From a virus, in IMG/VR virus record IMGVR_UViG_3300020439_002272, positions 1 through 24,126 of that record: a stretch of DNA of 24,126 bases; one strand, given 5' to 3'. The position numbers and the translations under genes are program-made. The notes beneath the pieces are model-generated. The model did no database searches and was not told where the DNA came from. It saw only the letters and a list, made by a program, of their open reading frames with translations. Positions 2,423-23,697 of the stretch are shown piece by piece. Within the stretch, counting starts at the first letter, position 1. Every line of letters begins with the position of its first letter.

Positions 2423-3738
2423 ATTGTTATTATGCGTTGGGTGGAATCAATTATAAAAATGGTGTCATAACAACATGTCCTAGACAAGCAAATCAATTAG
2501 TATTTGCAAACGAAACTATATTACCATCAGAAATATACAATCACAAAAATTTTAGATTGTTGAGAAATAAACTTCATGCTGGAGAATGGCCATCAGGATG
2601 TGATACATGCGAAGAAATGGAGAAGGTTGGTGCAAAATCTATGAGATTAGATTATGAGTTAAATGAAGAAAATTTATTTACCAAAATGGGTAAACCATAT
2701 GAAAAATTTAGATTGATTGATGATAAGAAATTAATTGACTGTTATGATAATAAGTCGGGACTTGTAAAAAATGAAGGTTTAAGACATATAGAATTTAGGT
2801 TTAGTACGGCATGTAACTTTTCTTGTCTGCATTGTTCTAAAGTTTATTCTTCTGGATGGACGAAAAAATTAAAAAATTATGAACCAGATGAAGAGGTTAA
2901 GTTTTATGATTTGAGACAATTATTAGGTACAGAACATAGACATGGACCAAATGACAAAAATGAAATGAGATTATCAGTCGATCAATCAATCAAAATTGTA
3001 GAAGATCTGAATGAAAATTTTCAACATCTATGTCAAGTAGATTTTGCAGGAGGTGAATTACTTTATCAGAAACAATTCTTTCCAACCTTAAAAAAATTAT
3101 CAGAACACCCTAATGCAAAAAATTTACACATTTCATTTCACACTAATTTTAATGCAGATTTTAATGTATCTGAATTAAGTCAACTACTAAAACCTTTCGG
3201 TAAAAATACTATTATTATATCAGTTGATGCAGGAAGATCATTTTACTCATATTTTAGGCATGGAGGTCATTGGGATAAATTAGTAGAAAACATAAATGAA
3301 TTTAAGAAATTAAATCCAGACAGAGGCAAGTATGAGATTATAGTATCTTGCACAACATCAATTTATCAAATGCTAGATATATATGATGTTATAGATTCGT
3401 TTTTAGAGTTATCCTGTGATTTTGATGCATCTTTGGTACAAACTCCAAAATACCTTGATCCTACTTTAGTTAATTTAGAATTTGCAAAAGAGACAGAACA
3501 GGATATCGAAAAGACTTATGAGTTGTTAAAAACCGATAAAAGAGTTGATAGTTGTAGAAATGCAATGTATTGGTTTGATTACATTGTTGATTACATGAAA
3601 AGATTTAATCCACAATATAAAGAATACAATAGATTTTTGATTTATCGAAAAAAATCAGATCAAATATGGGGACAAAATTTTAATGATTATTTTGTCAACT
3701 ATCAAATTGAAGATGACGAACTAATTAGAGTAAAGTGA
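2416..3738 (+). CDS. Twitch-type radical SAM protein, diverged
   Basis: A 440-residue protein starting at an ATG that overlaps the previous stop by 7 bases. Radical SAM cysteines are C133, C137 and C140 (CNFSCLHC). AGGELLYQKQF supplies the GGE motif and ISVDAG a later barrel strand. The N-terminal region keeps C4, C21 and the pair C62/C65 (GCDTCEE), but the PW-x-H and PCC elements seen in the gene before are altered (GINYKNGVITTCPRQ), so the auxiliary cluster may be ligated differently. An insert of about 40 residues separates the twitch region from the radical SAM core. Same directon and paralogous to its neighbours; substrate unknown. The divergence from the other copies argues for different substrates in one pathway rather than redundancy (inference). 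Confidence 0.83.
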   Translation: MLNCYYALGGINYKNGVITTCPRQANQLVFANETILPSEIYNHKNFRLLRNKLHAGEWPSGCDTCEEMEKVGAKSMRLDYELNEENLFTKMGKPYEKFRLIDDKKLIDCYDNKSGLVKNEGLRHIEFRFSTACNFSCLHCSKVYSSGWTKKLKNYEPDEEVKFYDLRQLLGTEHRHGPNDKNEMRLSVDQSIKIVEDLNENFQHLCQVDFAGGELLYQKQFFPTLKKLSEHPNAKNLHISFHTNFNADFNVSELSQLLKPFGKNTIIISVDAGRSFYSYFRHGGHWDKLVENINEFKKLNPDRGKYEIIVSCTTSIYQMLDIYDVIDSFLELSCDFDASLVQTPKYLDPTLVNLEFAKETEQDIEKTYELLKTDKRVDSCRNAMYWFDYIVDYMKRFNPQYKEYNRFLIYRKKSDQIWGQNFNDYFVNYQIEDDELIRVK

Positions 3739-4802
3739 AATTAAGTCAATACGATTTTACAAAAATTCCTTGGAACAATATTGAGCGAGTAGGTACATGG
3801 AAAATGCTCGGTTCAGATTTGTTTACAGTCTCATGGTTATTAGGAAGATTCTGTAATTACAGATGTTCATATTGTTGGCCATATGCGAGAAGTAATACAA
3901 AAGATCATCGTCCTACTGATTTATGCCTCAAGACGATTGACGAAATTAAGCGACAAGCAAGACAACGGAATTTTAATTCTTTTCACTTTAGTCTATCTGG
4001 AGGTGAGCCTACTTTTCACCCAGGATATCTGGATATACTTGAATATCTTGCTGATGATGTAGACAATACAAATTTTACATCAGTTCATATGACATCAAAT
4101 TGTTCAAGACCTATGAAATGGTTTGAGAAGTATGTAAAATCAGCAGAGAAATTCTCTAGAGCATCAATAACTGCATCTTTTCATCGTGAGTTTGTGACAC
4201 CTGATAAACTTGAAGAGTTTGCTGATAAGTTGGATTTCTGTCAACGCAGTGGTGTGAGAGTGACAATTAATTCTGTAATGGTACCTGATAAGTTTGATGA
4301 AATATACAAAGATCTATTATATTTTTATGAACGTGGTGTGAATGTAACTCTAAAACCCCAAAGCGATCCTACTGCATCAAGAGTTGTTGATGGTTATACA
4401 GAAGAACAGATGAAAATACTACATAATGGTATGCCTCAAATTACAAATATGGAGGTAAAATCAAACAAACTCAAGAATATTCGTCAAGAATTTGAGATTG
4501 TTATGAATGATGACGAGGGAAAGGAGTGGTATCTCGACCAAGCAGAAAGATTCAACGCATTTAATTTTAATAATTTCAGAGGGTGGATTTGTTCAACTGG
4601 CTATCGCAGTTGCATTATCCGTGAGCCTGATGGGAGCGTTAAGCGGTCTTATTCTTGCGGAGATATTCCTTTAGGTAACATTGAAACTGGTTTTAACTTA
4701 TTTGACAAACCTAAAGAATGCATAACTGATGCATGTGTAAGTTCTGCTGATAGCAAGATTCCTAAAAGAAAAATGAATTGCGAGTTACCACTATGGAAAT
4801 GA
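3735..4802 (+). CDS. Radical SAM protein with C-terminal SPASM/twitch-like cysteine region
   Basis: A 355-residue protein starting at GTG in a GTGA overlap with the previous stop; the next in-frame ATG (codon 24) would leave an unexplained gap. Radical SAM cysteines are C40, C44 and C47 (CNYRCSYCWPY); GGEP is at residues 89-92, followed by HPGY. Unlike its three upstream neighbours it lacks the N-terminal twitch block. Instead the last 80 residues carry cysteines in WICSTGYRSCIIREPDG and SYSCGDIPLGN, then KECITDAC, a pattern typical of C-terminal auxiliary Fe-S domains (SPASM/twitch). A single G-x2-(D/E)G-type turn ending in CGD..LGNI is common in radical SAM enzymes acting on peptides or sugars. 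The substrate is unknown. Confidence 0.83.
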   Translation: MKLSQYDFTKIPWNNIERVGTWKMLGSDLFTVSWLLGRFCNYRCSYCWPYARSNTKDHRPTDLCLKTIDEIKRQARQRNFNSFHFSLSGGEPTFHPGYLDILEYLADDVDNTNFTSVHMTSNCSRPMKWFEKYVKSAEKFSRASITASFHREFVTPDKLEEFADKLDFCQRSGVRVTINSVMVPDKFDEIYKDLLYFYERGVNVTLKPQSDPTASRVVDGYTEEQMKILHNGMPQITNMEVKSNKLKNIRQEFEIVMNDDEGKEWYLDQAERFNAFNFNNFRGWICSTGYRSCIIREPDGSVKRSYSCGDIPLGNIETGFNLFDKPKECITDACVSSADSKIPKRKMNCELPLWK

Positions 4803-6046
4803 AACCAACCAAAGAAAACACATTTTGCTATTTTCCATTTTATGCAATGTCGATGAAATTGTTTGATGGTAAACAATTAAAGGGTGTTACGCCATGTTGT
4901 AAAATGTCAAATAATGGCACAACCGTGTTAGATCAAGATGAAATAAACGAATTAACACCATTGGAAATATTTGAGCATGAGAAATTTGAGAAAATAAGAT
5001 CGGATGCTCTTAATAATGTGAGAAATGACAATTGTTCAATATGTTGGGCACAAGAGGACAGAGGATTGCATTCTTATAGATTGACATCATCATGGGTCTT
5101 TGACGATGAGTTTAAGCAAGATCTAAGAGAATTTGATGTTTCGTTTTCCAATAAATGTAATCTCGTATGTAGAATGTGTAATTTAGGCGGTTCTCATCAA
5201 TTCTATAAAGACCTCGAATATTTTAAGAGTAAAAACAAATTACATGAAGTCAGTGAAGCAACTTCCAAAGCGACTTTTCCTAATGTCAAATTTGATACAG
5301 AAAATAATTCTCAATTAAATTGGTTACTTGATAATTATCAACAAATAAAATTTCTTAAAGTTTCAGGTGGTGAACCTTTATATGATAAAAAAGTTCAGAA
5401 ATTGATTAAGATACTTGTTGAAAATGATTATGCAAAAAATGTTCTTTTACAATTTCACACGAATGCTACACTTCTTGATGATGCTAATATAGAATTATTA
5501 AATCAATTTAAGCAACAGGCGCATGTGTTTAGTGTAGACGGCACTGGTAAGACATATGAATACATCAGACACAAATCATCTTTTGATTTGGTCGAGTCAA
5601 ATATTTTTAATTGGTTAAGCAAAAGCAATAACATAAGAAGCGTGGCATTCAACCTAGTATTGTCAGCATTGAATGTGCTTAATTTGAGAGAATATTTAGA
5701 ATGGATTGGAGATACCTTCTCATATAAGTATGAAATAAAAATTCACATATCAGAAATTAGACCGTTCACAAGAGGCATTTCTCTATACAATGTTCCAATA
5801 GACATTCTGAAATTAGCGAAGAAACGAGTTGAAGACTTTGAGAAAGAAAACACAAATAATTTATTGCATTATGAAATAGGTAACATTTATAAATTCATAG
5901 ATCTTGGCATTGAAAAAAATACATTTGAGAGAAACTCCAATATGTTAAAATCTGAAGTGTCTCTTTTTGATGAATCTAGAAATCAGAGTTATAAAGATTT
6001 TTTAGATCCAATTTTAGTTAAGGTGTTGGATGGAATATGCAGGTGA
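4799..6046 (+). CDS. Twitch domain-containing radical SAM protein
   Basis: A 415-residue protein from the ATG at 4799, which forms an ATGA overlap with the preceding stop. ATG at 4793 and TTG at 4778 are alternatives in the same frame. Auxiliary-cluster cysteines are C10 (TFCYFPFYAMS), C33/C34 (VTPCC) and C79/C82 (NCSICWAQEDRG); radical SAM cysteines are C120, C124 and C127 (CNLVCRMC). GGEPLYD and FSVDGTG match the SAM-binding and barrel motifs. This is the same architecture as the protein at 1325-2422 with a longer C-terminal half. It probably follows a GTP-free SAM radical chemistry on a small molecule or a glycan precursor; nothing in the sequence fixes the substrate. It is coupled to the SGNH-like gene downstream by a 17-base overlap. 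Confidence 0.86.
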   Translation: MKPTKENTFCYFPFYAMSMKLFDGKQLKGVTPCCKMSNNGTTVLDQDEINELTPLEIFEHEKFEKIRSDALNNVRNDNCSICWAQEDRGLHSYRLTSSWVFDDEFKQDLREFDVSFSNKCNLVCRMCNLGGSHQFYKDLEYFKSKNKLHEVSEATSKATFPNVKFDTENNSQLNWLLDNYQQIKFLKVSGGEPLYDKKVQKLIKILVENDYAKNVLLQFHTNATLLDDANIELLNQFKQQAHVFSVDGTGKTYEYIRHKSSFDLVESNIFNWLSKSNNIRSVAFNLVLSALNVLNLREYLEWIGDTFSYKYEIKIHISEIRPFTRGISLYNVPIDILKLAKKRVEDFEKENTNNLLHYEIGNIYKFIDLGIEKNTFERNSNMLKSEVSLFDESRNQSYKDFLDPILVKVLDGICR

Positions 6047-6881
6047 GGTTAGAAAAATACATTTAATTGGCGATAGTTATTTTGAGAATCATCTCAATCC
6101 CCAATACGTTTCACACAAATCTTTTTATGATATGTTATGTGACAAATACGATGAATCGAATATTAATAATACTGCTTTATCTGGTTCTGGTCCTCATCGT
6201 AATTTAACTTTATTTTTACAAATGATACAAAATGGACAAATAGTCTCAGGTGATGTTGTTTGTGTTCATGTTTCAGGAACATCTAGAGTGCAATTTCCAT
6301 ATTATGAAGACACAATAAATGAATATCATTGGGATCATGAAAAGAAAAAATCTTTTTGTTATGAAGAGGATAGACAAGATCTAGGACCAAGACAGAGAAC
6401 GGCACTTACATACTATAATCAATTTAGAAGTGAAATAGATTTTGCTTATCTTACTTTTAATGATTTTCTCAGTCAATCAGATGTATACTTTTCAAGTGTT
6501 CTTTATTCATTTTCTAGAATTCTTGATATAAAAATATTAGTATTTGATAAATTCCAAAATGATTATGCTAACAATTTTATGTCATTGAATGATAACAAAT
6601 ATCATTATTATAAGAAAGATTTATTTTCAACAAGCACAAGAGAGGTATATTTTGATCAAGTTGATTCTATAGTGCATACGTTAAAAGAAGATAAGAGAAA
6701 AAATCATCTATCAGAAGAAAATCATAAAGTTATGTTTAATTTAATAGACAAATTTGCTAATGGTGCACCATTTACTGAATTGAATGGTATAGAGTTTATG
6801 GAAAATTTTAGAAACGCCAATGAGGTTTATAATATTTTAAGTGAAAATCATCCATATAAAGAAAAATTTGTTTATGATTGA
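6030..6881 (+). CDS. SGNH/GDSL-hydrolase-like protein
   Basis: A 283-residue protein; the ATG follows AAGGTG, a reasonable Shine-Dalgarno sequence inside the end of the previous gene. Seen in sequence: an N-terminal beta strand leading to GDSY (G14-D15-S16), the block I nucleophile motif of SGNH hydrolases; NNTALSGSG near residues 46-54, resembling the block II glycine region; VHVSGTSR near 79-86, where block III usually sits; and KRKNHLSEENH at 222-232, resembling block V with its catalytic Asp/His. SGNH proteins act as esterases or as O-acetyl-sugar hydrolases and transferases. No signal peptide or membrane segment is visible, so it should be cytoplasmic. Placed between radical SAM genes, it may add or remove an acyl group on the pathway product (inference). 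The fold assignment rests on motifs alone. Confidence 0.6.
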   Translation: MEYAGEVRKIHLIGDSYFENHLNPQYVSHKSFYDMLCDKYDESNINNTALSGSGPHRNLTLFLQMIQNGQIVSGDVVCVHVSGTSRVQFPYYEDTINEYHWDHEKKKSFCYEEDRQDLGPRQRTALTYYNQFRSEIDFAYLTFNDFLSQSDVYFSSVLYSFSRILDIKILVFDKFQNDYANNFMSLNDNKYHYYKKDLFSTSTREVYFDQVDSIVHTLKEDKRKNHLSEENHKVMFNLIDKFANGAPFTELNGIEFMENFRNANEVYNILSENHPYKEKFVYD

Positions 6882-7062
6882 TGAGATATTAAAAGACTAT
6901 TCTTTAAGAGAATTGCAAATAGCATCTTCACAAATACTGTCTGAACATGATGCAACAAATAATTTTATAAAAAAATTTAGAGCAGATCATGATAGTCAAG
7001 AATTTTACAAGAATGTAATAAAATGGTATATTGAGACCTATAAAAAATTTCCTGATGTATAA
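6874..7062 (+). CDS. Small protein of unknown function (62 residues)
   Basis: The ATG at 6874 overlaps the previous stop by 8 bases and the stop overlaps the next gene by 8 bases, the same coupling as every real gene around it. The protein is charged and probably all-helical, with no cysteine, no membrane segment and no motif I recognise; it contains YSLRELQIASSQILSEHD and ends in YIETYKKFPDV. The start could extend to 6841, but that would overlap the upstream gene by 41 bases. Its place directly before a SPASM-type radical SAM gene makes a carrier, chaperone or precursor-peptide role conceivable, but nothing in the sequence proves it. Confidence 0.6.
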   Translation: MIDEILKDYSLRELQIASSQILSEHDATNNFIKKFRADHDSQEFYKNVIKWYIETYKKFPDV

Positions 7063-8095
7063 TCACAATCAAATAAAACATATACATTTTGAGCCTACAC
7101 AAAGATGTCAAGCAATGTGTTCTATGTGTGATAGAACAAACAATTCACATATGAAAAATGCTGAAATATCTATTGACCAGTTTAAGCAAATTATAGATCC
7201 ACATTTTGCAAAACAATTGGATAGTTTTCTCATGTGTGGAAATCACGGAGATCCAATGGTCGCAAAAGATACGCTTGACATGTACGAATGGTTGAGGTAT
7301 CATAATTCTTTTCTGCATCTGCATATGACTACGAATGGTGGTGGTCGTTCAGACAGTTGGTGGAAAGATTTAGCAAAAGTGTTCGGTAACAATGGCAAAG
7401 TTACATTTTCGGTTGATGGACTTGAAGATACAAATCATCTGTATAGAGTTAATGTTGATTGGAAACGAGTTGAAAATTCTATGGATGTTTATACACAAGC
7501 AGGTGGTAAAGGTCTTTGGGTTTTTCTTATATTTGAGCATAATGAGCATCAAGTAGAAGAAGCAGAACGAATGGCCAAATTATTTGGACTTGAATTTGTC
7601 AAAAAGAAAACAGGAAGATGGGTTCAATCATACAAGGGTAAGAAGATAGAAAAGAAAGAAACCTCTAAAGGCAATGAATTAAAACCACCAAGCAATAAAA
7701 AATATCAAAACAAAAGCGTAAATGATTATGAAAAATTAATTAACACGCATGGAGATTTTAATTCATATCTTGATACTACAGAAATAGTGTGCAAATCATT
7801 AAAGACAAAAGAAATTTATATTTCAGCAGAGGGTTTAGTAACTCCTTGTTGTTGGACTGCAGGAAAATTATATAAATCATATGAGAAGATAGGTCAAAAT
7901 CAGATGTGGTCATATATTGATGATATTAAAAATATTAATGCATTACATACGCCAATACGTAAAATTATTGATGGTAATTTTTTCAACAAGATAGAACAGT
8001 CTTGGAATTTGCCTAGTTGTTCACAAGGAAAATCAAAAGTGTGTGCAGAAAAATGTGGTACAGGATTTGATGCATTTGGGGATCAATGGAGATAA
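7055..8095 (+). CDS. SPASM-type radical SAM protein
   Basis: A 346-residue protein from the ATG at 7055 (a TTG at 7031 is in frame but gives a non-family extension). It opens HIHFEPTQRCQAMCSMC, giving radical SAM cysteines C18, C22 and C25. The usual GGE motif is replaced by CGNHGDP, a substitution common in SPASM relatives. MTTNGG and TFSVDGLED follow as barrel strands. The C-terminus has GLVTPCCWTAG and later SCSQGKSKVCAEKCG, matching the auxiliary Fe-S binding region of SPASM/twitch enzymes. Known members modify peptides or carry out sugar and aminoglycoside dehydrogenations and epimerisations; the substrate here is unknown. An ATG inside the preceding stop codon region and a 10-base overlap with the following glycosyltransferase tie it to glycan genes. 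Confidence 0.86.
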   Translation: MYNHNQIKHIHFEPTQRCQAMCSMCDRTNNSHMKNAEISIDQFKQIIDPHFAKQLDSFLMCGNHGDPMVAKDTLDMYEWLRYHNSFLHLHMTTNGGGRSDSWWKDLAKVFGNNGKVTFSVDGLEDTNHLYRVNVDWKRVENSMDVYTQAGGKGLWVFLIFEHNEHQVEEAERMAKLFGLEFVKKKTGRWVQSYKGKKIEKKETSKGNELKPPSNKKYQNKSVNDYEKLINTHGDFNSYLDTTEIVCKSLKTKEIYISAEGLVTPCCWTAGKLYKSYEKIGQNQMWSYIDDIKNINALHTPIRKIIDGNFFNKIEQSWNLPSCSQGKSKVCAEKCGTGFDAFGDQWR

Positions 8096-13280: not shown

Positions 13281-13285
13281 CTCCT
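13281..13285 (-). promoter_or_regulatory. Strong Shine-Dalgarno site for the 336-residue gene
   Basis: AGGAG on the minus strand, 4 bases before the ATG at 13276. It overlaps the stop codon of the upstream gene, so ribosomes finishing that gene can reinitiate here. Most plus-strand genes in the window lack so clear a site. Confidence 0.6.
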
Positions 13286-15071
13286 AAATATCTGATTCTG
13301 ACATTAAATGTGTCGTGTTTACATCATAAGTAGTGGCACCTGCATATCTTATTCTATAGTAAGTACCTGATTCGCCTGATGGTGTTCCATCGAATATACC
13401 TGGCGTTGTGACCACGGTCTGATAATTTCCTGCAGGTCCACCTATACCTGCTTTTCTCGTGTTCATAGCAAAACCGTGTGAAAATTCACCTGAAGCGGTT
13501 GACGATCCTGTAAATCCAAAACCCAAAGTTTTTAATTTATATTGTGGATAATACATGCCTAAAGTATATAATTTATATAGTGTTTGTATCAATGCATTTG
13601 TTCTTAGATTATTTCTGGCGGCTGTACGTGTGGCACCACTATAATCTCCTATACCAATATATCCTCCACCTATGTTATATAGATTATTGAAATTTTCTAT
13701 GTTAGGTAGATCATGTCTCATTAAAGTAGTCATTCTTTCACACTTATAGACAGTGTTTGTATTATATGTGGTGTATGATCTATCACTATACATTGCTAGA
13801 AAACCACTATAGGGAAAATTACCTCCTGATTCTGGTCTTATTAGGTGTGTGCTTAGATTGGCAGGGGAATTAAAAGATGTCATATTACTCGAAAACCCTG
13901 GAAGAATAGTTGCGGTACTTGAAAATGAAGTTGAACTAGGTGTGCTTGATGTATAATCACTACTCAAATAAATCTCGGTTCCACTTGTATTTGCAGGCTT
14001 AAAATAAAAATATTTGTTATCAGAAAAATATCCTGCACTAGAATTATCCGCAACCCAAAATGCAAGTTCTCTTCCTTCATTATCGACATTTACACCGCTA
14101 CCAGAGTGAACAGTTACTTTCCATTTTTCAATATGTACTGGTCTTACACCACTGCCAGCAGTACCAGTAGAATCGTGATCATAAGTTCCTCCAGGATGAG
14201 GCACTTTAATATAGATTGAATAATTATATCTAAACGTTGGATAATCTAGATTAAATCTATATGCTAGACCATTAACTCCTGAAACACTATCTCTGAATGC
14301 ATAATAGTATGTGTTATTATAGTCATTAACACTTAAACCGGTAGCGGAAACTTCTCTCCATCCATCACCTGGAGAACTTGTTCCTAAATGATAAGATCCA
14401 AAATTGTAATTATCATTTGATCTAATTCTAGCAGTTACCATCTTAAAAATTGCTTCAGCAATTTTTCCCATATCTCCTTGAGTATGTGGATTTCCGCTTG
14501 AATCTGTAGATGCATACATGAAATCTCTAATCCATTGCGATGGAGAATAATTATTCAATAAATTAGAACTATTGCTAAAAGAAGAAGAGGAAGTGTGATT
14601 TCTTATTTCGTTATAATAATCACCACCAGGCTGTAATCCTGCCTGTGCGCCTGTTCCAAAATTTGCATTGTGTTTTTGTACCATGTAATATTGGTCATAT
14701 TCTACTTCAGAAATTGCTCCTGGCTCTGCAAAGGTATCATCGTCATCAGCAAAGTTGTCAAAAGCATTATTGGATTTGCTAGATATAGTGGCATTGAATT
14801 TTGTATCAACAATTTTATATCCTCTAATATCACTATAACCAGTAGATCTATCATAATCACTCATGTAAATTGAACCTATTTTTGCACCATAATAACCGCC
14901 AAAAAAGGAATGATACAACGTCCAATTCGAGGATGCTATTTGGATTGCGAAATATTCTTGCAATTTTCTTGCGATATTTTCAAGTTCTGAATCAGACATT
15001 CTTTTTAGAATACTACCAGTTGCCTTAATGGCTCTGCTTGTAGCATCTGAATTTGAGTAGGTATATGCCAT
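13284..15071 (-). CDS. Probable virion structural protein (tail-fibre-like), long paralogue
   Basis: A 595-residue protein, first gene of the minus-strand block; GGAAAG lies 3 bases before the ATG. It is rich in Ser, Tyr, Gly, Asn and Thr, with no signal peptide or membrane segment. The N-terminal helix LKRMSDSELENIARKLQEYF (22-41) probably forms the particle-attachment or trimer module shared with the 382-residue protein at 11106-12254; the C-terminal SGTYYRIRYA (568-577) is shared as well. The middle, about 150-480, is unique and full of short beta-type Tyr/Ser segments, as expected of a receptor-facing or decorative domain. Late promoter octamers stand 28-35 and 106-113 bases upstream. Assignment as structural rests on composition, paralogy and promoter type. 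Confidence 0.65.
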   Translation of the reverse strand: MAYTYSNSDATSRAIKATGSILKRMSDSELENIARKLQEYFAIQIASSNWTLYHSFFGGYYGAKIGSIYMSDYDRSTGYSDIRGYKIVDTKFNATISSKSNNAFDNFADDDDTFAEPGAISEVEYDQYYMVQKHNANFGTGAQAGLQPGGDYYNEIRNHTSSSSFSNSSNLLNNYSPSQWIRDFMYASTDSSGNPHTQGDMGKIAEAIFKMVTARIRSNDNYNFGSYHLGTSSPGDGWREVSATGLSVNDYNNTYYYAFRDSVSGVNGLAYRFNLDYPTFRYNYSIYIKVPHPGGTYDHDSTGTAGSGVRPVHIEKWKVTVHSGSGVNVDNEGRELAFWVADNSSAGYFSDNKYFYFKPANTSGTEIYLSSDYTSSTPSSTSFSSTATILPGFSSNMTSFNSPANLSTHLIRPESGGNFPYSGFLAMYSDRSYTTYNTNTVYKCERMTTLMRHDLPNIENFNNLYNIGGGYIGIGDYSGATRTAARNNLRTNALIQTLYKLYTLGMYYPQYKLKTLGFGFTGSSTASGEFSHGFAMNTRKAGIGGPAGNYQTVVTTPGIFDGTPSGESGTYYRIRYAGATTYDVNTTHLMSESDI

Positions 15072-15092
15072 AATCTTTCCAATATAATGATG

Positions 15093-15100
15093 TATAAATA
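15093..15100 (+). promoter_or_regulatory. T4-type late promoter for the tmRNA transcript
   Basis: Exact TATAAATA. With T4 spacing, transcription would start near 15106, at the predicted 5' boundary of the tmRNA acceptor piece. Known biology: this octamer is read by the sigma55-type factor with gp33 and the sliding clamp; a gp33-like gene lies at 23473. Confidence 0.65.
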
Positions 15101-15106
15101 TTTATG
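15099..15106 (-). promoter_or_regulatory. Late promoter variant for the minus-strand structural genes
   Basis: Minus-strand reading is CATAAATA, one mismatch from the late octamer. It overlaps the plus-strand octamer in the palindrome ATAAATATTTAT, making a divergent pair. The expected start near 15093 would give a leader of about 21 bases before the ATG at 15071. Confidence 0.5.
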
Positions 15107-15165
15107 TCAATGATTCTGCGAGATAGCAGGCTAGGACGTGGGTTCGATTCCCACCACCTCCACCA
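15106..15165 (+). ncRNA. ssrA: Permuted tmRNA, acceptor piece
   Basis: This is the 3' (acceptor) part of a two-piece tmRNA, placed before the coding piece as expected for a circularly permuted gene. Seen: hairpin CTGC/GCAG (15116-15119 with 15126-15129); a T arm with stem GTGGG/CCCAC (15138-15142 with 15150-15154) and loop TTCGATT; acceptor strand CACCTCC (15155-15161); discriminator A15162; and an encoded CCA at 15163-15165. The acceptor strand pairs over 7 bp with GGGGGTG at 15307-15313 of the coding piece, including a G3-U70 wobble, the alanine identity element for AlaRS. The 5' limit is inferred from the late promoter and could be tens of bases off. The long-range helix 2 partner was not resolved by eye. 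Confidence 0.85.
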
Positions 15166-15176
15166 GCGTTCTTAGA

Positions 15177-15184
15177 TATTTATA
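15177..15184 (-). promoter_or_regulatory. Second late promoter on the minus strand, inside the tmRNA spacer
   Basis: Minus-strand reading is an exact TATAAATA. A transcript from here would start near 15171, run antisense through the tmRNA acceptor piece and continue into the structural gene starting at 15071. Confidence 0.55.
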
Positions 15185-15225
15185 AAAGACATATAATAGC
15201 ACAAAATTTATAAAAAGTAAAGAGT

Positions 15226-15318
15226 ATGGATTCTAATCTCATCTTTTTGGCTATTGTTATTTTAATTGGTGTAACCGTATTCATTTCAATAATAGAATTT
15301 CTATTAGGGGGTGTTTAG
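15226..15318 (+). CDS. Possible 30-residue membrane peptide in the tmRNA spacer
   Basis: An ATG-started ORF lies in the spacer between the two tmRNA pieces, with a weak purine tract (AAAGAG) just upstream. The product begins MDSNLIFLAIVILIG and continues hydrophobic to residue 27, with one Glu at 24, ending GGV: a short polar N-terminus followed by one membrane-spanning helix. Its last three codons and stop use the first bases of the tmRNA coding piece (15307-15318), so protein and RNA constrain the same bases. If translated, the peptide would be made from the unprocessed precursor. AT-rich spacer DNA easily encodes hydrophobic peptides, so this may be chance. Confidence 0.35.
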   Translation: MDSNLIFLAIVILIGVTVFISIIEFLLGGV

Positions 15319-15484
15319 GTATTCGACTACATGTGAAAGCGTAGAGGAGACACATCTTGACAGATGTAAAAATGTCTGTTATAATAATCGCAAACAACAA
15401 CGATTATACCTCAGCACAAGTGGCTTTGGCCGCTTAATTGCTACGGGCTTTTCTGGTTGTGCCTGGGAACAGAAACAACCAATA
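15307..15484 (+). ncRNA. ssrA: Permuted tmRNA, coding piece (mRNA-like domain)
   Basis: This is the 5' part of the two-piece tmRNA. GGGGGTG (15307-15313) is the acceptor-stem strand, followed by the D-loop-like TTTAGGTATTCGAC, close to the near-universal tmRNA signature. A PK1-like pseudoknot can be drawn: stem ACATC/GATGT (15352-15356 with 15363-15367), whose loop GACA (15359-15362) pairs with TGTC (15373-15376). The tag frame follows, then a hairpin GGTTGT/ACAACC (15455-15460 with 15475-15480) enclosing CTG-GGAA-CAG, resembling the CUGG-AACAG loop I recall from alphaproteobacterial two-piece tmRNAs. Known biology: tmRNA with SmpB rescues stalled ribosomes and tags the nascent protein for proteolysis. 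The 3' end is approximate. The next gene starts 20 bases later, so both probably share one primary transcript. Confidence 0.87.
15390..15437 (+). other. tmRNA proteolysis-tag reading frame
   Basis: From the resume codon GCA at 15390 the frame reads ANNNDYTSAQVALAA and stops at TAA (15435-15437). The start AN plus acidic/polar residues and the end ALAA match known tags, whose terminal hydrophobic residues are recognised by ClpXP-type proteases. The style (AN.D....ALAA) resembles alphaproteobacterial tags more than cyanobacterial ones. The resume codon is inferred by analogy. Confidence 0.85.
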
Positions 15485-15503
15485 ACATTTCATGTGAAAA
15501 ATT

Positions 15504-18212
15504 ATGCAAAAACTTCTATATGTGACACCCCATTTATCTACAGGTGGGGCACCTCAATATCTTTTACGAAAATTAGAACTACTATTAAATGATTATGATA
15601 TTCATGTCATCGAGTTTCAAGATTTTGGCATTTTTAGGGTGCAGAAAGATCAAATAATAGATCTGCTCAAAAATCCATTGATAACACTTGGAGATGACAA
15701 ATATGAAATCATGACTCATATCAAAAATATAAGACCTGATATCATTCATTTTGAGGAAATGCCAGAATTGTTTAGTATTTCTGATGAGTTATCTCACCTC
15801 ATTTATCATCCAAACAGACAATATAAAATTTTTGAGACTTCTCATGATTCGTCTTTTGATCCTGGCAATAAAAAATTCTTTCCAGATAAATTCTTATTCT
15901 GTAGTGATAATCAATTGATAAAATTTAGATCGGTTGATGTTCCTGCCTGTGTCATAGAATATCCAGAATACAATTATAAAAGAAAAGATAGAGATCAAGG
16001 ATTGAGATCTCTTGGATTAGATCCTGAATATAAACATGTGTTAAATGTAGGACTGTTTACTGCAAGAAAAAATCAAGGTGAAATATTTGAGTATGCACGA
16101 CAATTAGAAAATGAAAAAATACAATTTCATTTTATTGGTAATCAAGCGCCCAATTTCAAGAATTATTGGGAACCGTTGATGAATGATAAGCCTGACAATT
16201 GTAACATATGGGGTGAACGTAAAGATGTAGAAAATTTTTATTCCTGTATGGATTTGTTTTTATTCACATCAAGAGGGCATGATGGAGATAAAGAGACTAA
16301 TCCTCTCGTATTAAAAGAAGCCGTAAGTTGGAATATACCAATTCTCATGCATAAAATAGATTCATACCTAGACAAATATGATAGAAAGGCAACGTACTTG
16401 TCTTCTAATAACAAATTAAATTTTCTTAAAATTAAAAATGTCTTAGGTCTGAATGACGGTGATATAGAATGTTTTACAGATTTTGACGGAGACATATCAA
16501 AACAGGTAAGAGTAAATTTTAATTTTTCAGATAGAGCATTTGATGCGTTGAAAGATAAATTAATCTGTGTATATGATAGTAGAAATAAACTTTGCATTAT
16601 GCGTAGTAAGGTAATGTCACCAAATATGTTTTGTATACCAAGTCCTCTTGCGAGTTTAGTCGATGGTTATGATGTTAAAATTTTTAATGCTAACGAAAAT
16701 TATTTTTCTAATTTAAGAGATGTACATCAAAATAGAATAGATGATCACCATTTACTATATCAAAAGAATTTTTCATTTCATCGTGAAATACCAAGTGTAG
16801 TAGTAAAAGACAAGGAAATAAAAGTTGTTGGTATTGACGATGATCCATCATCATGGTTTACAATGAATGAGGTATTCATTTCTAAAATTTATAAGAAAAT
16901 GAATATACAAAAAAACGATATTGTTTTAGACATTGGTGGTCATTATGGATTCTTCTCATTATATGCGTTGGATAAAGATGCTAAAGAAGTTCATGTCATT
17001 GAACCTTCACATACAAATTATAAGATACTATCAAAAAATTTAAGAGGATTTGATAATGTCAAAAAATATAATTGTGCTTTAAGTGAAGATGTTGGTGAAA
17101 AAGAATTTATTCTTGTTGGTCCAAGTAGTACAAACACATTCTATGAAAGTTACAATACACAAAATGAAAACCCAACCTCGCTTGGACAAACAAAAAAGGT
17201 GCAGGTGAACACGATGAATTTTGATCATTTTATCAAAAACAATAATATCGATAGAATAGATGCAATAAAGATTGATTGTGAAGGAGCAGAATGGGATATT
17301 TTTCCAACAATATCTGATGACTTTCTTAAATATAAAGTTAGAAAGATAAGTGCAGAATTGCATCAATTTAATAATGAAAAAGATTTAGAACATCATTACA
17401 AACGAAGTGAGCAATTAGAAGAAAGACTAATCAAATTAGGTTATGATGTTGAACGAGAACATGTTACAAGTAATCAACCAGATGAAAATGGTTTAGGACA
17501 AATATGGGCAAAAAGATATCCAAAAATTAAAGTTGTTCATATGCTCTGCACTACAGAAGGTCAGCGTGAAAAAGAAAGTATAAAACACATTAATCGTTTA
17601 CTTGATGTTTCTAATTGGGTTTATGAGCAATCGATGAATAAAAGATTTACAGATCTGCCTCCTGCAGATACTTGTGCAAGACCAGATGTGGTTCAGTTAG
17701 AACCTGGAGATTATAAATTGACAGGTGCCCATTATGGAAATTTTATGGCACATCGTAGAGTCTTTGAGGAACATATGACAGATGACTATGATGCTATTTT
17801 ATTTTGTGAATGTGATGCTATTTTTATTAAACCTCCAGAAGAAGTATATAAAATAATAATTGACAGTTACGATGATTTAATGTATAATAATCTTAATTAT
17901 ATGTCATTTGGCAAACGTATACCTGATTGGCATTATGATGAATATGAATCATTTGGAGTAACTGATAGAATGTCAGAGGCACATTGTTATCTTGTACCAA
18001 CAAGCAAAAAACAATACTTTATTGATAAGTTTGAGAGTACAGGTTGGGACACTTATGACCTTTGGCTTAATTCGTTTGTTTTTCCTGATAAAAAATGCGG
18101 TATAGTTAAACAACCAATATCAATACAATGTTCAGGTGATTCATATCTAGATAAATCTCATAAAGACGGTACAACATTATTAAAAGAGGGTGATATAACA
18201 TATGAGTTGTGA
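15504..18212 (+). CDS. Trifunctional fusion: GT4 glycosyltransferase - FkbM methyltransferase - GT-A-like glycosyltransferase
   Basis: A 902-residue protein starting MQKLLYVTPHLSTGGAPQYL, a classic GT4/GT-B N-terminus. Residues 1-290 are GT4-like: NVGLFTARKNQGEI (181-194), and TNPLVLKEAV (265-274) carrying the E-x7-E-type region. About 445-670 is an FkbM-type methyltransferase: DIVLDIGGHYGFFSLYALD (472-490) as SAM loop, VHVIEPS (496-502) and IDAIKIDCEGAEW (585-597). About 675-902 is a GT-A-like domain: VVHMLCTTEGQREKESIKHI (677-696) and AILFCECDAIF (764-774) as D-x-D equivalent. Residues 300-440 link the first two. No membrane segment. It probably extends and O-methylates one glycan in a single polypeptide (inference). 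It starts just after the tmRNA and overlaps the next gene by 11 bases. Confidence 0.82.
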   Translation: MQKLLYVTPHLSTGGAPQYLLRKLELLLNDYDIHVIEFQDFGIFRVQKDQIIDLLKNPLITLGDDKYEIMTHIKNIRPDIIHFEEMPELFSISDELSHLIYHPNRQYKIFETSHDSSFDPGNKKFFPDKFLFCSDNQLIKFRSVDVPACVIEYPEYNYKRKDRDQGLRSLGLDPEYKHVLNVGLFTARKNQGEIFEYARQLENEKIQFHFIGNQAPNFKNYWEPLMNDKPDNCNIWGERKDVENFYSCMDLFLFTSRGHDGDKETNPLVLKEAVSWNIPILMHKIDSYLDKYDRKATYLSSNNKLNFLKIKNVLGLNDGDIECFTDFDGDISKQVRVNFNFSDRAFDALKDKLICVYDSRNKLCIMRSKVMSPNMFCIPSPLASLVDGYDVKIFNANENYFSNLRDVHQNRIDDHHLLYQKNFSFHREIPSVVVKDKEIKVVGIDDDPSSWFTMNEVFISKIYKKMNIQKNDIVLDIGGHYGFFSLYALDKDAKEVHVIEPSHTNYKILSKNLRGFDNVKKYNCALSEDVGEKEFILVGPSSTNTFYESYNTQNENPTSLGQTKKVQVNTMNFDHFIKNNNIDRIDAIKIDCEGAEWDIFPTISDDFLKYKVRKISAELHQFNNEKDLEHHYKRSEQLEERLIKLGYDVEREHVTSNQPDENGLGQIWAKRYPKIKVVHMLCTTEGQREKESIKHINRLLDVSNWVYEQSMNKRFTDLPPADTCARPDVVQLEPGDYKLTGAHYGNFMAHRRVFEEHMTDDYDAILFCECDAIFIKPPEEVYKIIIDSYDDLMYNNLNYMSFGKRIPDWHYDEYESFGVTDRMSEAHCYLVPTSKKQYFIDKFESTGWDTYDLWLNSFVFPDKKCGIVKQPISIQCSGDSYLDKSHKDGTTLLKEGDITYEL

Positions 18213-19269
18213 AGACTCTATAGTATGCATACATGCACATCTAAGTGATGAAGAGAGAATAAGAGTTTGTCTTGAATTTGTCAGAAAAATAAAATCGTTT
18301 GGATATGATGTAATCGTTACATCTCATACTCAAGCGACAAAAGAATTTCAAGAAGAAGTCGATTATTTTGTTTATGATAAAGATAATATTGTTTTATCTG
18401 ATGTACAGTATCTAGGCTGGATGACATGGTATGCACCTAATTATGATTTGACATCAAAAGAATTTTGTTCATATAATACAGTATTGGCGGTTTTTAGGTT
18501 GATGTATATTGGAACAATGTATGCAAAATTATTAGGTAAATCAAAAATACATTTATTTGATTACGATGGTTTGTTAGAGAAACCTGATGAATTAATTATT
18601 AATGAAAACAAAATAGATAATGGTTTAGACGGTGTATTTTACTATTGGCAAAACGAAAAGACTGTTGATGACGGCAGAGGTTACGACACAACTGTAACGA
18701 CAAAATTACAAACGACAACTAGATTTATTTCGGCAAGAGTTGATTTTTTACTAGAAAGATTTGAGAAATTAAAAAGCGTTGAAGCACAAAAAAATATATT
18801 AAATGAATTTAGTTTTTTAGTAGGTGAAGAATTTTTTGCATATGCTTTTGGTTTAACAACATATAATGGAAACGATAAGAATACAAACGTAGAATTGTTA
18901 CCTTTTGTAGATAATTTAGAAAGGATGGGTATGATTCAGGATAGAATTCATACTCATCAAGATTTTTCATGGGTGGCATTAACACTTCCTGATAAAGTGA
19001 TTAATTCTATAGTAAATCCTGTGCCAAATTTTCTATTCATGATGAATCCCCACAAGCCAACAAAATATCAAGTGTTTCTAGACAAGAATGAAAAACCTTT
19101 TTTCACTTTTGAGGCATTAAAATATAATTATAATTTACTTCAGATATATGGTAATCCTGTTGTTGATGTATACTGTGATGATAAGCATTTTAGAACATAT
19201 GATCTCAAAGATTCAAGCACATTAGAGAGATTAGAAATTTGTAACACCCTTTATTTTAAGAACACATGA
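18202..19269 (+). CDS. Glycosyltransferase-like protein (GT-A type)
   Basis: A 355-residue protein; GAGGG lies 12 bases before the ATG, inside the end of the preceding gene. The N-terminus IVCIHAHLSDEERIRVCLEF leads to GYDVIVTSHT, and LLGKSKIHLFDYDGLLEKPD places a D-x-D motif (D120/D122), the layout of GT-A enzymes in marine phage glycan islands. Later segments (FISARVDFLLERF, FLVGEEFFAYAF) suit an acceptor-binding half. The last 80 residues (FLFMMNPHKPTKYQVFLDKN) look like a beta-sandwich appendix, possibly for substrate binding. Donor and acceptor are unknown. Its last four bases overlap the start of the giant glycosyltransferase gene, so stoichiometric co-expression is likely. Confidence 0.62.
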   Translation: MSCEDSIVCIHAHLSDEERIRVCLEFVRKIKSFGYDVIVTSHTQATKEFQEEVDYFVYDKDNIVLSDVQYLGWMTWYAPNYDLTSKEFCSYNTVLAVFRLMYIGTMYAKLLGKSKIHLFDYDGLLEKPDELIINENKIDNGLDGVFYYWQNEKTVDDGRGYDTTVTTKLQTTTRFISARVDFLLERFEKLKSVEAQKNILNEFSFLVGEEFFAYAFGLTTYNGNDKNTNVELLPFVDNLERMGMIQDRIHTHQDFSWVALTLPDKVINSIVNPVPNFLFMMNPHKPTKYQVFLDKNEKPFFTFEALKYNYNLLQIYGNPVVDVYCDDKHFRTYDLKDSSTLERLEICNTLYFKNT

Positions 19270-22200
19270 AACCAAAAGTAAGTGTATTAGTGCAAACATG
19301 TGACAACTATTCTCATTTTTGGGAAGGTTGGTATACAATGTTTAATCGTTTCTGGGATTTTGATTTAGATTGGCAGATTTATTTTTGTAGTGAAGAGAGA
19401 GATTTCCCTTATCAAGATGATAGAATCAAACAACTTAAAACTGGTAAGAGTAAACAATATTGGGGTGTTGAAGAACGAGAGTGGATTCAAGATTGGTACG
19501 GTAAGCCAAAACAGATAGATGAAGGTTGGAGTGACAGATTAATTTATATGTTAGAGAATGTAGATACCGATTACATTTTTTACATGCAAGAAGATCAGTG
19601 GCCAAAATTTAAGATTGATAAAGAACTGTTTTCAGATCTTGCAAGTTTTTGTTATTCATATGATGTTGATGCTCTTAAATTACATAGAGTCATAAGATTA
19701 GATCATGTAGTACCAAAACGTAAGACAGACATATACATTAGAGATAAAAAACTCATACAATGGGGGCCAGAAAACGATTGGTTAGTGAGTCATCAACCTA
19801 CACTATGGAAACGTGAATTTCTACTAGATTTGCAGATTAAAGGTGAAGGTTTTAGAGATAATGAATATGCAGGTACAGATAGATTAAGAGAAAAATATAA
19901 AGATAATTTTCCTAAGATCTATAGTTATAATCACGATTGGTTTTATGAAAGGTCGGCCGCATCTCGTGGTGAATGGGTTGAACCAGTGCAGTGGGAGTTC
20001 GATGAAGTCAAACATGAAATTGATGTTGAGACAAGATATGAATTGTTAAAACCAAAACACAAACCTAAAAGTAAAGGTCTTAAATTATCGTTAGTCACAT
20101 CATGTTTTAATGCTGAACATTTTATTGATGAATTGGCTGAAACGGTCATATCTCAAAACTATGATAATTGGGAATGGATTGTTGGTGATGATTTTTCTGA
20201 TGATAATACTTTCCAGAAATTACTCGATTTGCAAAATCGAGATCCAAGAATCCGAGTAGCATTTCCTAAACATAAAAAACAAATGTGGTGGAATCCTCAA
20301 GAGTTTGCTACAGGAGATATTGTATGCCATTTAGATGCTGATGACAAATTGCTTCCAAATTGTTTTGAGAAGATCAATTATTACTTTAGAATTTTTCCTG
20401 AAGTTGTTTTAATGCATTTCAATGCCAACAAATATAATGATACTTTACCGAACGGTCCTAATCAAACATTTGAGAAGTATAAAGATAATGTTTACATGAC
20501 CACTGATAATGATTCTTTTCTTGAGGGGTTTGAGAAATTATGGCCATTGAGAAGTAGTATATTTGGTTATCTTAGAATTTTTCGTAACATTCCTGGATTA
20601 CATTTTCCTGTTCATGAAGATGGCGATGCTTGTTCATCTAATGATGGACAATGGTTACTAATGCTTGAAGAACGTGGAAAATGGTTGACAATACCAAGAA
20701 CAGTTTATGTAGCGAGAGAGCATGGTGCATCAGAAAATTTTACAAGATGGAATCAAAGAGGCGAGGCACAATTAGCAATTGATGCGAGAAAGAGAAGACA
20801 GGAATTTCACATTGAATACCCCAGAAATCTAAAGTATTTTGATGAGATTTATAATTTAGCCGAGTCTACTTATACTACATCATTTAATTGGGCAACAGAA
20901 CCACAAGTAGTTTCATTCATTAACTATCAACTCAACGACATAAAAAAAGATAAAGCAAAAAAATTGTTTTTTGATCATGATATTAACTTTGACTACTATC
21001 ATGAGAATGTAAATTATTACTTTGTGCAAATACAACTTGATACAACTCCTAGAGATTTTCAATATATTATAACAGAAATAAAAAATAGATCATCCAACAA
21101 TTATGAATTGGTCGTATTTTGTGAGAATAAAAATTTACATTTTAATTTGAGAACAGGTGAAGATAATATTAATTTAATATACGAATTGATGTTATCAAAT
21201 GGATATCAATTTAATTTTTTCGAGCAATTGAACAGATATCATATTGTCTCAATGAAAAATTTTGATGAGCCAAAAATTGAGGTGCAAGAAAATTTTGAGA
21301 TAGAGCATGTAGAAAAAAAGGTTGAACAGTCAGACATTCTTAATATAATGCAAGTACATGTCGGTTGTGGTATAGATATTCCGCCAAAAACATATGGAGG
21401 TTTAGAAGAGGTGATATACCATTATATAAGAATGGCAGAACATAATGGACATAATGTTGAACTTAAATGGCTTGACGATATTACGCAAGCAGATCTTGAT
21501 CATTATGATATTTTTCATGTACATACTGGTGGGTTTTCTGATCTAGTTAAAGACAGATGTATCCCTTACATATTTACAACGCATGATGTACATCCATGGA
21601 TTAACGGTAAAGATTCTTGGTATTATCAAGTCAATAATGAATCTATAAAAAACTCGCTTTTCTCTTTAATTCCTTGTGATCATCTCATACCGTATTATGA
21701 TACACCAGAAAAACTTAGGAAACTAGATCATGGTGTTGATTCTAATTTTTTCTTTCCTACAAACAATAAAAAAGATAAACCAAAACTTGTATGTGTAGGT
21801 GGTGGAGATGACAGAAAAGGTTTTCATCTAGCAATACTTGCGGCCAAAGAATTAGGTATGCCAATTACAATTGTGGGACCTGATAGTATTCACGAAAACT
21901 ATAATGATGTATTCTATAAAGTTAAGAATGCATGTAAAAATGACATAGAAATAAATCAAACTGGTAATGTTGATAAGCATCAACTAAGAAAAATTCTAAA
22001 TGAGCATGATATAATAATTCATCCGTCATCAATTGAAACAGGACAACCTTGTCTTGCAGTTTTAGAAGCAATGTCTTGTGGTTTGCCGTGTGTCGGAACA
22101 ATGCAAGATGATGTAACAGTACCAGGATTGATAGAGTGTACAAGAGAAGTAGATACAATCGTGAGCGGTGTAAAGACAGTTCTTGACGATTATGATAATC

Positions 22201-23480
22201 ACTCTAAAAATGCTAGAAATTTTGCAATTGAACGAGATTGGGAAAATATTTTTAAGAAACTTGAACCTTATTATTATGAGGCAAGAGAATTAAAAAATAC
22301 AAAACCTTTTAGCATGAAAGATAGATTGCAGTTTGCATACAATGAAACTGAATTTAAGAAAAAGGAATCTAAAGCAGATCATAACAATATTGATATTAAG
22401 TTTTCACCAAACCCAATTGTTGAAATTACTGGTCTACATCCGAAAGAATACGAAGTAACTTTTAAGAACAAAGAAAATGGAGGAACTGTTTACAGTAATG
22501 TAATAAACACAAACAATTGGTGCGGATCAAATATACAATATTTTATTCCATGGCATATAATAGTAAAAGAGAAAGACGGTCCAATTATAAAAGAACATAT
22601 TATGGATCTCAATAAAGAAGCCGTGTATATTTATTTTGATTCTGGTGCTATGGGTGATAACTTAGCATGGATAGGTTCAGTAAATCAATTTCAACAGAAA
22701 CATAAATGTAAGGTATATTGTTTTACTTTCTTCAACGAACTATTTAGAGAAAAATATCCAAATATAGAATTTGTTGATGATCATAATAATTTTCAACATA
22801 GCGACAAATTTACTTACAAATATTGGATTGGATGGCTTAATTCTGATTCTGGCAGATGTCCAATTGATACAAAAAAGGTTCCACTACAAGAAGTATCATC
22901 TACAATATTAGGTCTTGACTATGTGGAAGAACGTGCTAAAATAACTATCAACGAATTAGAAGCAGAATTGCAAAACCCATATGTCTGTATTGGAATGCAA
23001 TCAACTGCACAAGCAAAATATTGGAATTACGAAGGAGGTTGGAATGAAATAGTTGAATATCTTAAATCAAAAAATTATGATGTTGTATGTGTAGATAAAC
23101 ATCAAGTCTTTGGTGCAGGCAATTATATGAATCATGCACCTGATGGTGTGATACATCGACATGAAAGAACACTGGATCAAACTATTGCAACAATTAATGG
23201 TTGTGAATTTTTTATAGGACTAGGTTCAGGATTATCATGGCTTGCTTGGGCATTAGAAAAACCTGTAGTTTTAATTTCAGGTTTTAGCGAACCTTATTCT
23301 GAATTTGCAATAGATTGTGAAAGAGTGCATAATGATTCAGTATGTAACAGTTGTTATAATCGTCACACTTTTGATCCTGGTAAATGGGATTGGTGTCCAG
23401 ATAATAATGATTTTGTATGTACAAAAAGTATTACGCCAGAAATGGTTAAACATTCAATTGATAAAATTATAAATGCTTAA
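19266..23480 (+). CDS. Giant four-module glycosyltransferase: GT-A - GT2 - GT4 - TibC/Aah-like O-heptosyltransferase
   Basis: A 1404-residue protein in an ATGA overlap with the previous gene. Module 1 (1-260): GT-A-like, VSVLVQTCDNYSHFWEGWY and YIFYMQEDQWP. Module 2 (272-550): GT2, LSLVTSCFNAEHFIDEL, DDFSDDNT and HLDADDKLLPN (D-x-D at 357-359). Residues 560-690 form a linker domain. Module 3 (691-1010): GT4, PKTYGGLEEVIYHY, GGGDDRKGFHLAI and CLAVLEAMSCGLP (E933). Module 4 (about 1040-1404) resembles autotransporter strand-loop-strand O-heptosyltransferases (TibC/Aah, GT9-like): FDSGAMGDNLAWIGSV, with D1131 a candidate catalytic Asp; FIGLGSGLSWLAWALEKPVV; and four cysteines C1360-x2-C1363-x13-C1377-x7-C1385 ending FVCTKSITPEMV. 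Known relatives bind iron through such cysteines and use ADP-heptose. The phage substrate is unknown. Confidence 0.83.
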   Translation: MKPKVSVLVQTCDNYSHFWEGWYTMFNRFWDFDLDWQIYFCSEERDFPYQDDRIKQLKTGKSKQYWGVEEREWIQDWYGKPKQIDEGWSDRLIYMLENVDTDYIFYMQEDQWPKFKIDKELFSDLASFCYSYDVDALKLHRVIRLDHVVPKRKTDIYIRDKKLIQWGPENDWLVSHQPTLWKREFLLDLQIKGEGFRDNEYAGTDRLREKYKDNFPKIYSYNHDWFYERSAASRGEWVEPVQWEFDEVKHEIDVETRYELLKPKHKPKSKGLKLSLVTSCFNAEHFIDELAETVISQNYDNWEWIVGDDFSDDNTFQKLLDLQNRDPRIRVAFPKHKKQMWWNPQEFATGDIVCHLDADDKLLPNCFEKINYYFRIFPEVVLMHFNANKYNDTLPNGPNQTFEKYKDNVYMTTDNDSFLEGFEKLWPLRSSIFGYLRIFRNIPGLHFPVHEDGDACSSNDGQWLLMLEERGKWLTIPRTVYVAREHGASENFTRWNQRGEAQLAIDARKRRQEFHIEYPRNLKYFDEIYNLAESTYTTSFNWATEPQVVSFINYQLNDIKKDKAKKLFFDHDINFDYYHENVNYYFVQIQLDTTPRDFQYIITEIKNRSSNNYELVVFCENKNLHFNLRTGEDNINLIYELMLSNGYQFNFFEQLNRYHIVSMKNFDEPKIEVQENFEIEHVEKKVEQSDILNIMQVHVGCGIDIPPKTYGGLEEVIYHYIRMAEHNGHNVELKWLDDITQADLDHYDIFHVHTGGFSDLVKDRCIPYIFTTHDVHPWINGKDSWYYQVNNESIKNSLFSLIPCDHLIPYYDTPEKLRKLDHGVDSNFFFPTNNKKDKPKLVCVGGGDDRKGFHLAILAAKELGMPITIVGPDSIHENYNDVFYKVKNACKNDIEINQTGNVDKHQLRKILNEHDIIIHPSSIETGQPCLAVLEAMSCGLPCVGTMQDDVTVPGLIECTREVDTIVSGVKTVLDDYDNHSKNARNFAIERDWENIFKKLEPYYYEARELKNTKPFSMKDRLQFAYNETEFKKKESKADHNNIDIKFSPNPIVEITGLHPKEYEVTFKNKENGGTVYSNVINTNNWCGSNIQYFIPWHIIVKEKDGPIIKEHIMDLNKEAVYIYFDSGAMGDNLAWIGSVNQFQQKHKCKVYCFTFFNELFREKYPNIEFVDDHNNFQHSDKFTYKYWIGWLNSDSGRCPIDTKKVPLQEVSSTILGLDYVEERAKITINELEAELQNPYVCIGMQSTAQAKYWNYEGGWNEIVEYLKSKNYDVVCVDKHQVFGAGNYMNHAPDGVIHRHERTLDQTIATINGCEFFIGLGSGLSWLAWALEKPVVLISGFSEPYSEFAIDCERVHNDSVCNSCYNRHTFDPGKWDWCPDNNDFVCTKSITPEMVKHSIDKIINA

Positions 23481-23697
23481 AATAATATCTCCCCAAGACT
23501 TCACAATAACAATAGAACATATAAAAAAGTCAAAAAATATGACTTATATGGACGCTATTCAATATTATTGTGAACAAAACAATATAGAACTTGAAACTAT
23601 TGGTAAACTTGTACAAGGCGCCTTGAAATCGAAAGTAAGAGAAGAAGCAGAGAATTTACATTTTCTACCTAAACCAACACGTATACCTGGACTATGA
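23473..23697 (+). CDS. 33: gp33-like late transcription coactivator
   Basis: A 74-residue protein whose sequence (ISPQDFTITIEHIKKSKNMT, YMDAIQYYCEQNNIE, LHFLPKPTRIPGL) matches the compact gp33-type proteins of T4-like marine phages; T4 gp33 itself is longer, at 112 residues. Known role: it bridges host RNA polymerase (beta flap) and the phage sliding clamp to activate transcription from TATAAATA late promoters, with the sigma55-type factor. Such octamers occur at 15093 and 15177 in this window. The ATG overlaps the end of the giant glycosyltransferase gene by 8 bases and the stop overlaps gene 59 as ATGA. The 33-59 adjacency is itself typical of T4-like genomes and supports the call. Confidence 0.85.
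   Translation: MLKIISPQDFTITIEHIKKSKNMTYMDAIQYYCEQNNIELETIGKLVQGALKSKVREEAENLHFLPKPTRIPGL

Follow-up and report, generated by a model that had tools for sequence, protein, structure and literature searches.

The 24,126-nt stretch of viral DNA analysed here (the window) carries a permuted tmRNA that most probably belongs to a marine T4-like (Kyanoviridae-like) phage and has a small protein-coding gene nested in the segment that separates the two tmRNA pieces. The two-piece phage tmRNA is itself already known, and it is the apparently protein-coding spacer that constitutes the new element. The segment between permuted tmRNA halves is usually treated as waste and left unannotated. If phages instead place small genes there, a class of phage micropeptides goes systematically unannotated today, the RNA gene has two products rather than one, and compact genomes would have a reason to keep the permuted form.

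A complete circularly permuted (two-piece) tmRNA gene can be read by eye on the plus strand of the window, with the acceptor piece placed before the coding piece. ARAGORN called one permuted tmRNA (15072-15528) with the tag ANNNDYTSAQVALAA, and Rfam model RF04321, the merged permuted tmRNA model that has absorbed the former alpha_tmRNA RF01849, was matched end to end over 15105-15437 with 88.9 bits (E=3.6e-16), the gathering cut-off being 47 bits. The features of the region, all on the plus strand, are the following:

15093-15100: T4-type late promoter-like octamer TATAAATA, an exact match just upstream of the acceptor piece
15105-15165: tmRNA acceptor piece, with T arm, acceptor 3' strand, A73 and encoded CCA (ARAGORN, RF04321, sequence)
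15138-15142 and 15150-15154: T stem GTGGG/CCCAC, with loop TTCGATT (sequence)
15155-15161: acceptor 3' strand CACCTCC, followed by A73 (sequence)
15163-15165: encoded CCA (sequence)
15166-15306: intervening segment (spacer) of 141 nt, between the CCA and G1
15226-15318: nested ORF, putatively encoding a 30-aa micropeptide with one TM helix, MDSNLIFLAIVILIGVTVFISIIEFLLGGV; the final 12 nt lie within the coding piece
15307-15484: tmRNA coding piece (ARAGORN, RF04321, sequence, folding); 3' end approximate
15307-15313: acceptor 5' strand GGGGGTG (sequence)
15321-15327: ATTCGAC signature (sequence)
15352-15376: PK1-type pseudoknot, S1 ACATC/GATGT and S2 GACA/TGTC (sequence; S1 covariation in the clade)
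15390-15437: tag reading frame ANNNDYTSAQVALAA-stop, resume codon GCA (ARAGORN, RF04321)
15455-15480: 3' hairpin GGTTGT...ACAACC with an AACAGAA motif, found also in other phage tmRNAs

The acceptor stem of the window forms its full 7 bp across the two pieces and includes the alanine identity pair G3-U70; in relatives, G3-U70 and the CCA were fixed by the search pattern. Acceptor pair 5:68, the sole one left free by that pattern, joins the two pieces and was G-C in 79, A-U in 62 and C-G in 30 of 174 viral permuted genes, with two other standard pairs and 99.4% of the genes paired. At the remaining acceptor positions the pattern allowed little or no variation, so they are uninformative on covariation. 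PK1 stem 1 also covaries among clade members (CATC/GATG, CAGT/ACTG, CAAC/GTTG, CAAG/CTTG, CGAC/GTCG, CGGT/ACCG), and the coding piece folds better than its shuffles (z=-3.1). The acceptor stem was absent from the minimum-energy fold of the whole precursor, a fold that is unreliable at such length and cannot model pseudoknots. The permuted tmRNA gene in the window is real. The initial annotation had described a phage-encoded circularly permuted tmRNA, and every part that it listed is present at the position given. It had proposed ARAGORN and Rfam covariance models as checks, both of which match, and had named as grounds against it a miss by the model, or acceptor strands failing to covary in related phages; the model covers both pieces, and covariation links them.

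The same annotation had regarded such a gene as unusual in this setting, which does not hold. Of the 53 phage two-piece tmRNAs reported by Buchholz et al. (2022; PMC9004378), 50 are marine or aquatic. Permuted tmRNAs are present in the isolates HTVC008M, Mosig and Melnitz, and pattern scans of IMG/VR alone yielded at least 221 ARAGORN-called permuted tmRNA genes. Its description of the genome as T4-like has some backing from a gp33-like late-transcription gene at 23473-23697 (PHROG 254, E=1e-18), whose relatives are those of Kyanoviridae cyanophages, Mosig and Melnitz; the 24-kb fragment contains no capsid or terminase gene to carry that description further. SmpB was likewise not found within the fragment.

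Relatives of the window tmRNA were sampled from IMG/VR with fixed search patterns, and members of its clade were recognised by the tag motif NNxDY/NNSEY; the clade recovered in the tree described below falls within this set. An ORF of 27-33 aa fills the spacer in all 34 sampled tmRNAs of this clade, which together hold 26 different spacers. The nucleotides of the spacer are not conserved in relatives, though the flanking tmRNA pieces are 84-90% identical; in the close relatives L013-L015 and L027 the spacer sequence differs and still encodes a single-helix peptide of 29-30 aa. AGGAG stands directly after the CCA of many clade ORFs. A Shine-Dalgarno (SD)-like motif occurs within the first 14 nt after the CCA in 16 of 25 clade ORFs versus 17 of 148 ORF-less segments, and a clear SD is absent in the nine other clade ORFs. 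Over 12 pairs without shared sequences, the differences at codon positions 1, 2 and 3 numbered 108, 57 and 160 (p=2e-11). Values of pN/pS were below 1 in nearly all pairs (0.09-0.30 in family B and 0.07-0.38 in family F; roughly 0.1-0.3 in the closest families) and near or above 1 in some.

In the wider IMG/VR sample, 37 of 87 segments of 91-144 nt contained an ORF filling the intervening sequence (IVS) versus about 5 in dinucleotide shuffles, and 35 TM-like ORFs were found in segments of this size versus about 0.5. Segments of 55-90 nt showed no ORF enrichment (3 versus about 7 expected), so that spacer coding is not universal. Mosig and HTVC008M have short segments with no IVS-filling ORF. 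Longer segments, of 157-187 nt, carry ORFs of 47-57 aa (57 aa in L482, 47 aa in L469 and 53 aa in L477), which include a TM-plus-tail protein and a probable coiled coil.

Other phage lineages hold unrelated small ORFs of 22-57 aa in the same position, some of them soluble. Examples are MTWDDIRR..., MENLILLV... (41 aa), MKTPDII... (22 aa) and a Trp-rich soluble group, M.QWD.YFPPLNLWNYS, whose ORF extends from the slot into the coding piece. A 50-aa family beginning MKYKIVVK lies inside the intervening segment in L501-L506 and L509-L515; in L507 and L508 it is a free-standing gene flanked by protein genes. In L516 it is preceded by an acceptor-like relic that lacks a downstream coding piece. Most pairs of this family have pN/pS values of 0.14-0.38. 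A cargo family that occurs both inside and outside the tmRNA is the best single argument for real genes that come and go in the slot. The L516 copy (974-1155) is 96% identical to that of L510, and a second, intact tmRNA (1775-2173) lies about 620 nt downstream; a possible reading is the escape of cargo from a decayed tmRNA. In L502 (82-1377), four tRNA genes (Trp, Gly, Val and Ser) lie directly upstream of the cargo-bearing permuted tmRNA. At least seven changes of label (some of the labels possibly being chance ORFs) are required to explain how ORF-bearing genes are distributed on the tree, so the slot has probably been filled more than once. Because related lineages hold other small genes there, it behaves as a recurrent cargo site, one that costs almost no extra DNA.

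An ordinary permuted tmRNA with a meaningless spacer, in which hydrophobic ORFs are by-products of U-rich and AT-rich sequence, would agree with the published permuted phage tmRNAs (PMC9004378), the lack of ORF excess in short segments, the absence of an IVS-filling ORF in Mosig and HTVC008M and the weak ribosome site of the ORF in the window. Composition of this kind is retained in the dinucleotide shuffles, which nonetheless produce almost none of the TM ORFs observed, and neither an ORF in every clade tmRNA, nor three-base periodicity with low pN/pS, nor a homologous free-standing gene is expected from filler; this explanation is improbable. As a group, the slot ORFs are nearly certain to be real genes.

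The support from coding constraint is weaker for the ORF of the window alone than for the group. The initial annotation took the spacer as a plain gap between the two pieces and overlooked the ORF at 15226-15318. In 3000 shuffles of the window segment, 0.3% yielded a TM-like ORF with a length of at least 26 aa and a hydropathy of at least 2.0, and the hydropathy of the actual peptide, 3.2, was never reached. By shuffling, the peptide resembles those of L158 (p=0.001) and L013 (p=0.0065; both values uncorrected for six comparisons), and its similarity to the peptides of L027, L043, L063 and L081 was not significant; pN/pS was 0.56 to L158 and 0.49 to L013. Within its clade the ORF is atypical, starting 60 nt after the CCA versus 0-16 nt elsewhere, having as ribosome site only a poorly spaced AGAG and running 12 nt into the coding piece. 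It is probably a real gene, and its product would be located in the membrane. The slot peptides could not be convincingly assigned to any family with Pfam or PHROGs, the best weak match being Sarcolipin, at 18.6 bits and below the cut-off. Searches of INPHARED with DNA and tblastn (the tmRNA, three TM peptides and the 50-aa cargo) found no useful relative, a result that says little since the peptides are short and of low complexity.

The segment might instead be conserved for RNA reasons, as a processing helix extending the acceptor stem, with the ORF secondary. The ends of spacers do pair far better than shuffled ones, with a mean terminal helix of 9.8 bp in segments without an ORF and 7.9 bp in those with one versus 3.5-4.0 bp, which suggests that in most precursors the acceptor stem continues into the spacer; the SD and the start codon fall within this helix in some relatives. 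It touches only the ends, however, whereas codon periodicity spans the whole ORF. The window was considered as a further bearer of this helix and rejected, as its segment forms only 2 bp there, a point that likewise speaks against an RNA role as the reason for conservation. We regard such an account as unlikely, and the nested coding gene as the better reading.

The octamer TATAAATA has two exact matches in the window, a number not above chance, and it is the position that matters. It stands at the equivalent place in the relatives L013-L015, and GATAAATA does so in L027. Its location before the acceptor piece, together with this recurrence, suggests late transcription of a single precursor. 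The other copy, on the minus strand at 15177-15184, falls within the intervening segment and faces a divergent gene for a 595-aa protein (13284-15071), whose late transcription may proceed antisense across the acceptor piece. The L013 segment also contains TATTTATA.

Under the proposed working of the nested gene, one precursor would be transcribed, probably late in infection, from the octamer at 15093. RNase P and 3'-end nucleases would then cut at G1 and at the CCA, as described for two-piece tmRNAs (PMC9004378) and assumed here from those known cases, to give a two-piece, alanine-charged tmRNA. By analogy, segment 15166-15306 would be removed in this step. Together with SmpB, the tmRNA would rescue stalled ribosomes and add a degradable tag ending in ALAA. 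The intervening segment would serve as a coding slot, translated before or after processing into the 30-aa single-helix membrane peptide. As a guess, the peptide could be a membrane-acting accessory of host takeover or of lysis timing.

The ribosome-binding site directly adjoins the CCA in many relatives, and the stop codon adjoins G1, where RNase P cuts. Since the terminal helix in addition covers the start codon in some of them, it can be tentatively suggested that phage permuted tmRNAs are dual-output transcripts in which translation of the nested gene competes with maturation of the tmRNA, although we consider this a good deal less probable than the nested gene itself. A ribosome that loads early would delay folding and processing of the tmRNA, or the reverse, and the supply of ribosomes would thereby be linked to the output of membrane peptide.

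Among known systems, the closest are the tmRNAs of Melnitz (a Methylophilales phage) and of the Pelagibacter phages Mosig and HTVC008M (PMC9004378), which have in common with the window the permuted order, the encoded CCA, a tag ending in LAA, AACAGAAACA in the 3' hairpin and, probably, a T4-like marine phage genome. Unlike the window, the three have T-loops resembling those of alphaproteobacteria, with which they also group in the tree, and the spacers of Mosig and HTVC008M are short and lack an IVS-filling ORF. In Melnitz the spacer measures about 140 nt, and its unannotated ORF, MFKWLSKTRLVV..., which extends into the coding piece, is represented by a single sequence. This spacer ORF (MZ577095; L455:855-1035), MFKWLSKTRLVVITRDYFRERNRKADAKIPKYLSG..., has a GGAG site and would make a good experimental model. 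Alphaproteobacterial two-piece tmRNAs also have the permuted architecture and the tRNA-like domain, but they differ in their T-loop, of the GGCRGTR type versus TTCGATT; most of their spacers are short, and no cargo ORF was seen in those read. A parallel for a protein gene inside a portion that the mature RNA lacks is the group I intron-containing tmRNA with a homing endonuclease gene (PMC11915505); there the carrier is a self-splicing intron in the T-loop and the proteins are LAGLIDADG endonucleases, whereas here the carrier is the intervening segment and the products are small membrane or soluble peptides. Permuted intervening sequences have been described that hold a tRNA-Ala gene in one case and a repeat element in another (PMC11915505). 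In these the same segment houses an extra element, but they are single, non-protein-coding cases from cellular genomes. No protein gene in the intervening segment of a permuted tmRNA is reported in PMC11915505 or in the open-access literature searched.

As to the origin of the tmRNA, a T-loop of the form TTCRAYT (TTCGATT in the window) occurred in none of 47 alphaproteobacterial permuted tmRNAs, most of which read GGCRGTR; that of Melnitz is of the alpha type, and those of Mosig and HTVC008M are of the related form TGCAAY. In a tree of 123 genes, the alphaproteobacteria fell together (100/99) with HTVC008M, Mosig and Melnitz beside them (93/86), and the window was placed in a separate, phage-only clade of 12 genes (100/100). 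The window thus shows neither the alpha-type T-loop nor the grouping with alphaproteobacterial genes by which membership of that lineage was judged. Permuted tmRNAs that combine a canonical T-loop with a spacer of 20-50 nt were searched for by pattern in 299 Pseudomonadota genomes, and none was found. On these comparisons the window tmRNA appears to lie outside both the alphaproteobacterial and the pelagiphage lineages, and the claim on origin is confined to this, since the bootstrap was only partly settled and the tree left out betaproteobacterial and cyanobacterial genes. Capture from an alphaproteobacterial (SAR11-like) host, as the initial annotation had suggested, is very unlikely in view of the T-loop, the tree and the genome search, even though most cellular permuted tmRNAs are alphaproteobacterial, the SAR11 phages HTVC008M and Mosig have permuted tmRNAs, and that of Melnitz was argued to be alphaproteobacterial (PMC9004378).

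A scan of genome contigs gave matches that were mostly due to chance. Two contigs from metagenome-assembled genomes, L363 and L383 (Saprospiraceae and Flavobacteriales), carry permuted tmRNAs with nested ORFs like the viral ones; they are probably phage contigs binned with host genomes and were left out of the bacterial evidence.

Elsewhere in the window, a run of radical SAM-like genes at 151-8095, beside glycosyltransferase genes, is unusual for a stretch of phage DNA. Pfam matches were obtained at 151-1332, 4778-6046 and 7031-8095, and the neighbours at 1307, 2416 and 3735 look alike by eye. The gene at 15504-18212 encodes a glycosyltransferase fused to an FkbM methyltransferase, and that at 19266-23480 a single 1404-aa chain in which glycosyltransferase domains of family 2, group 1 and family 9 are combined.
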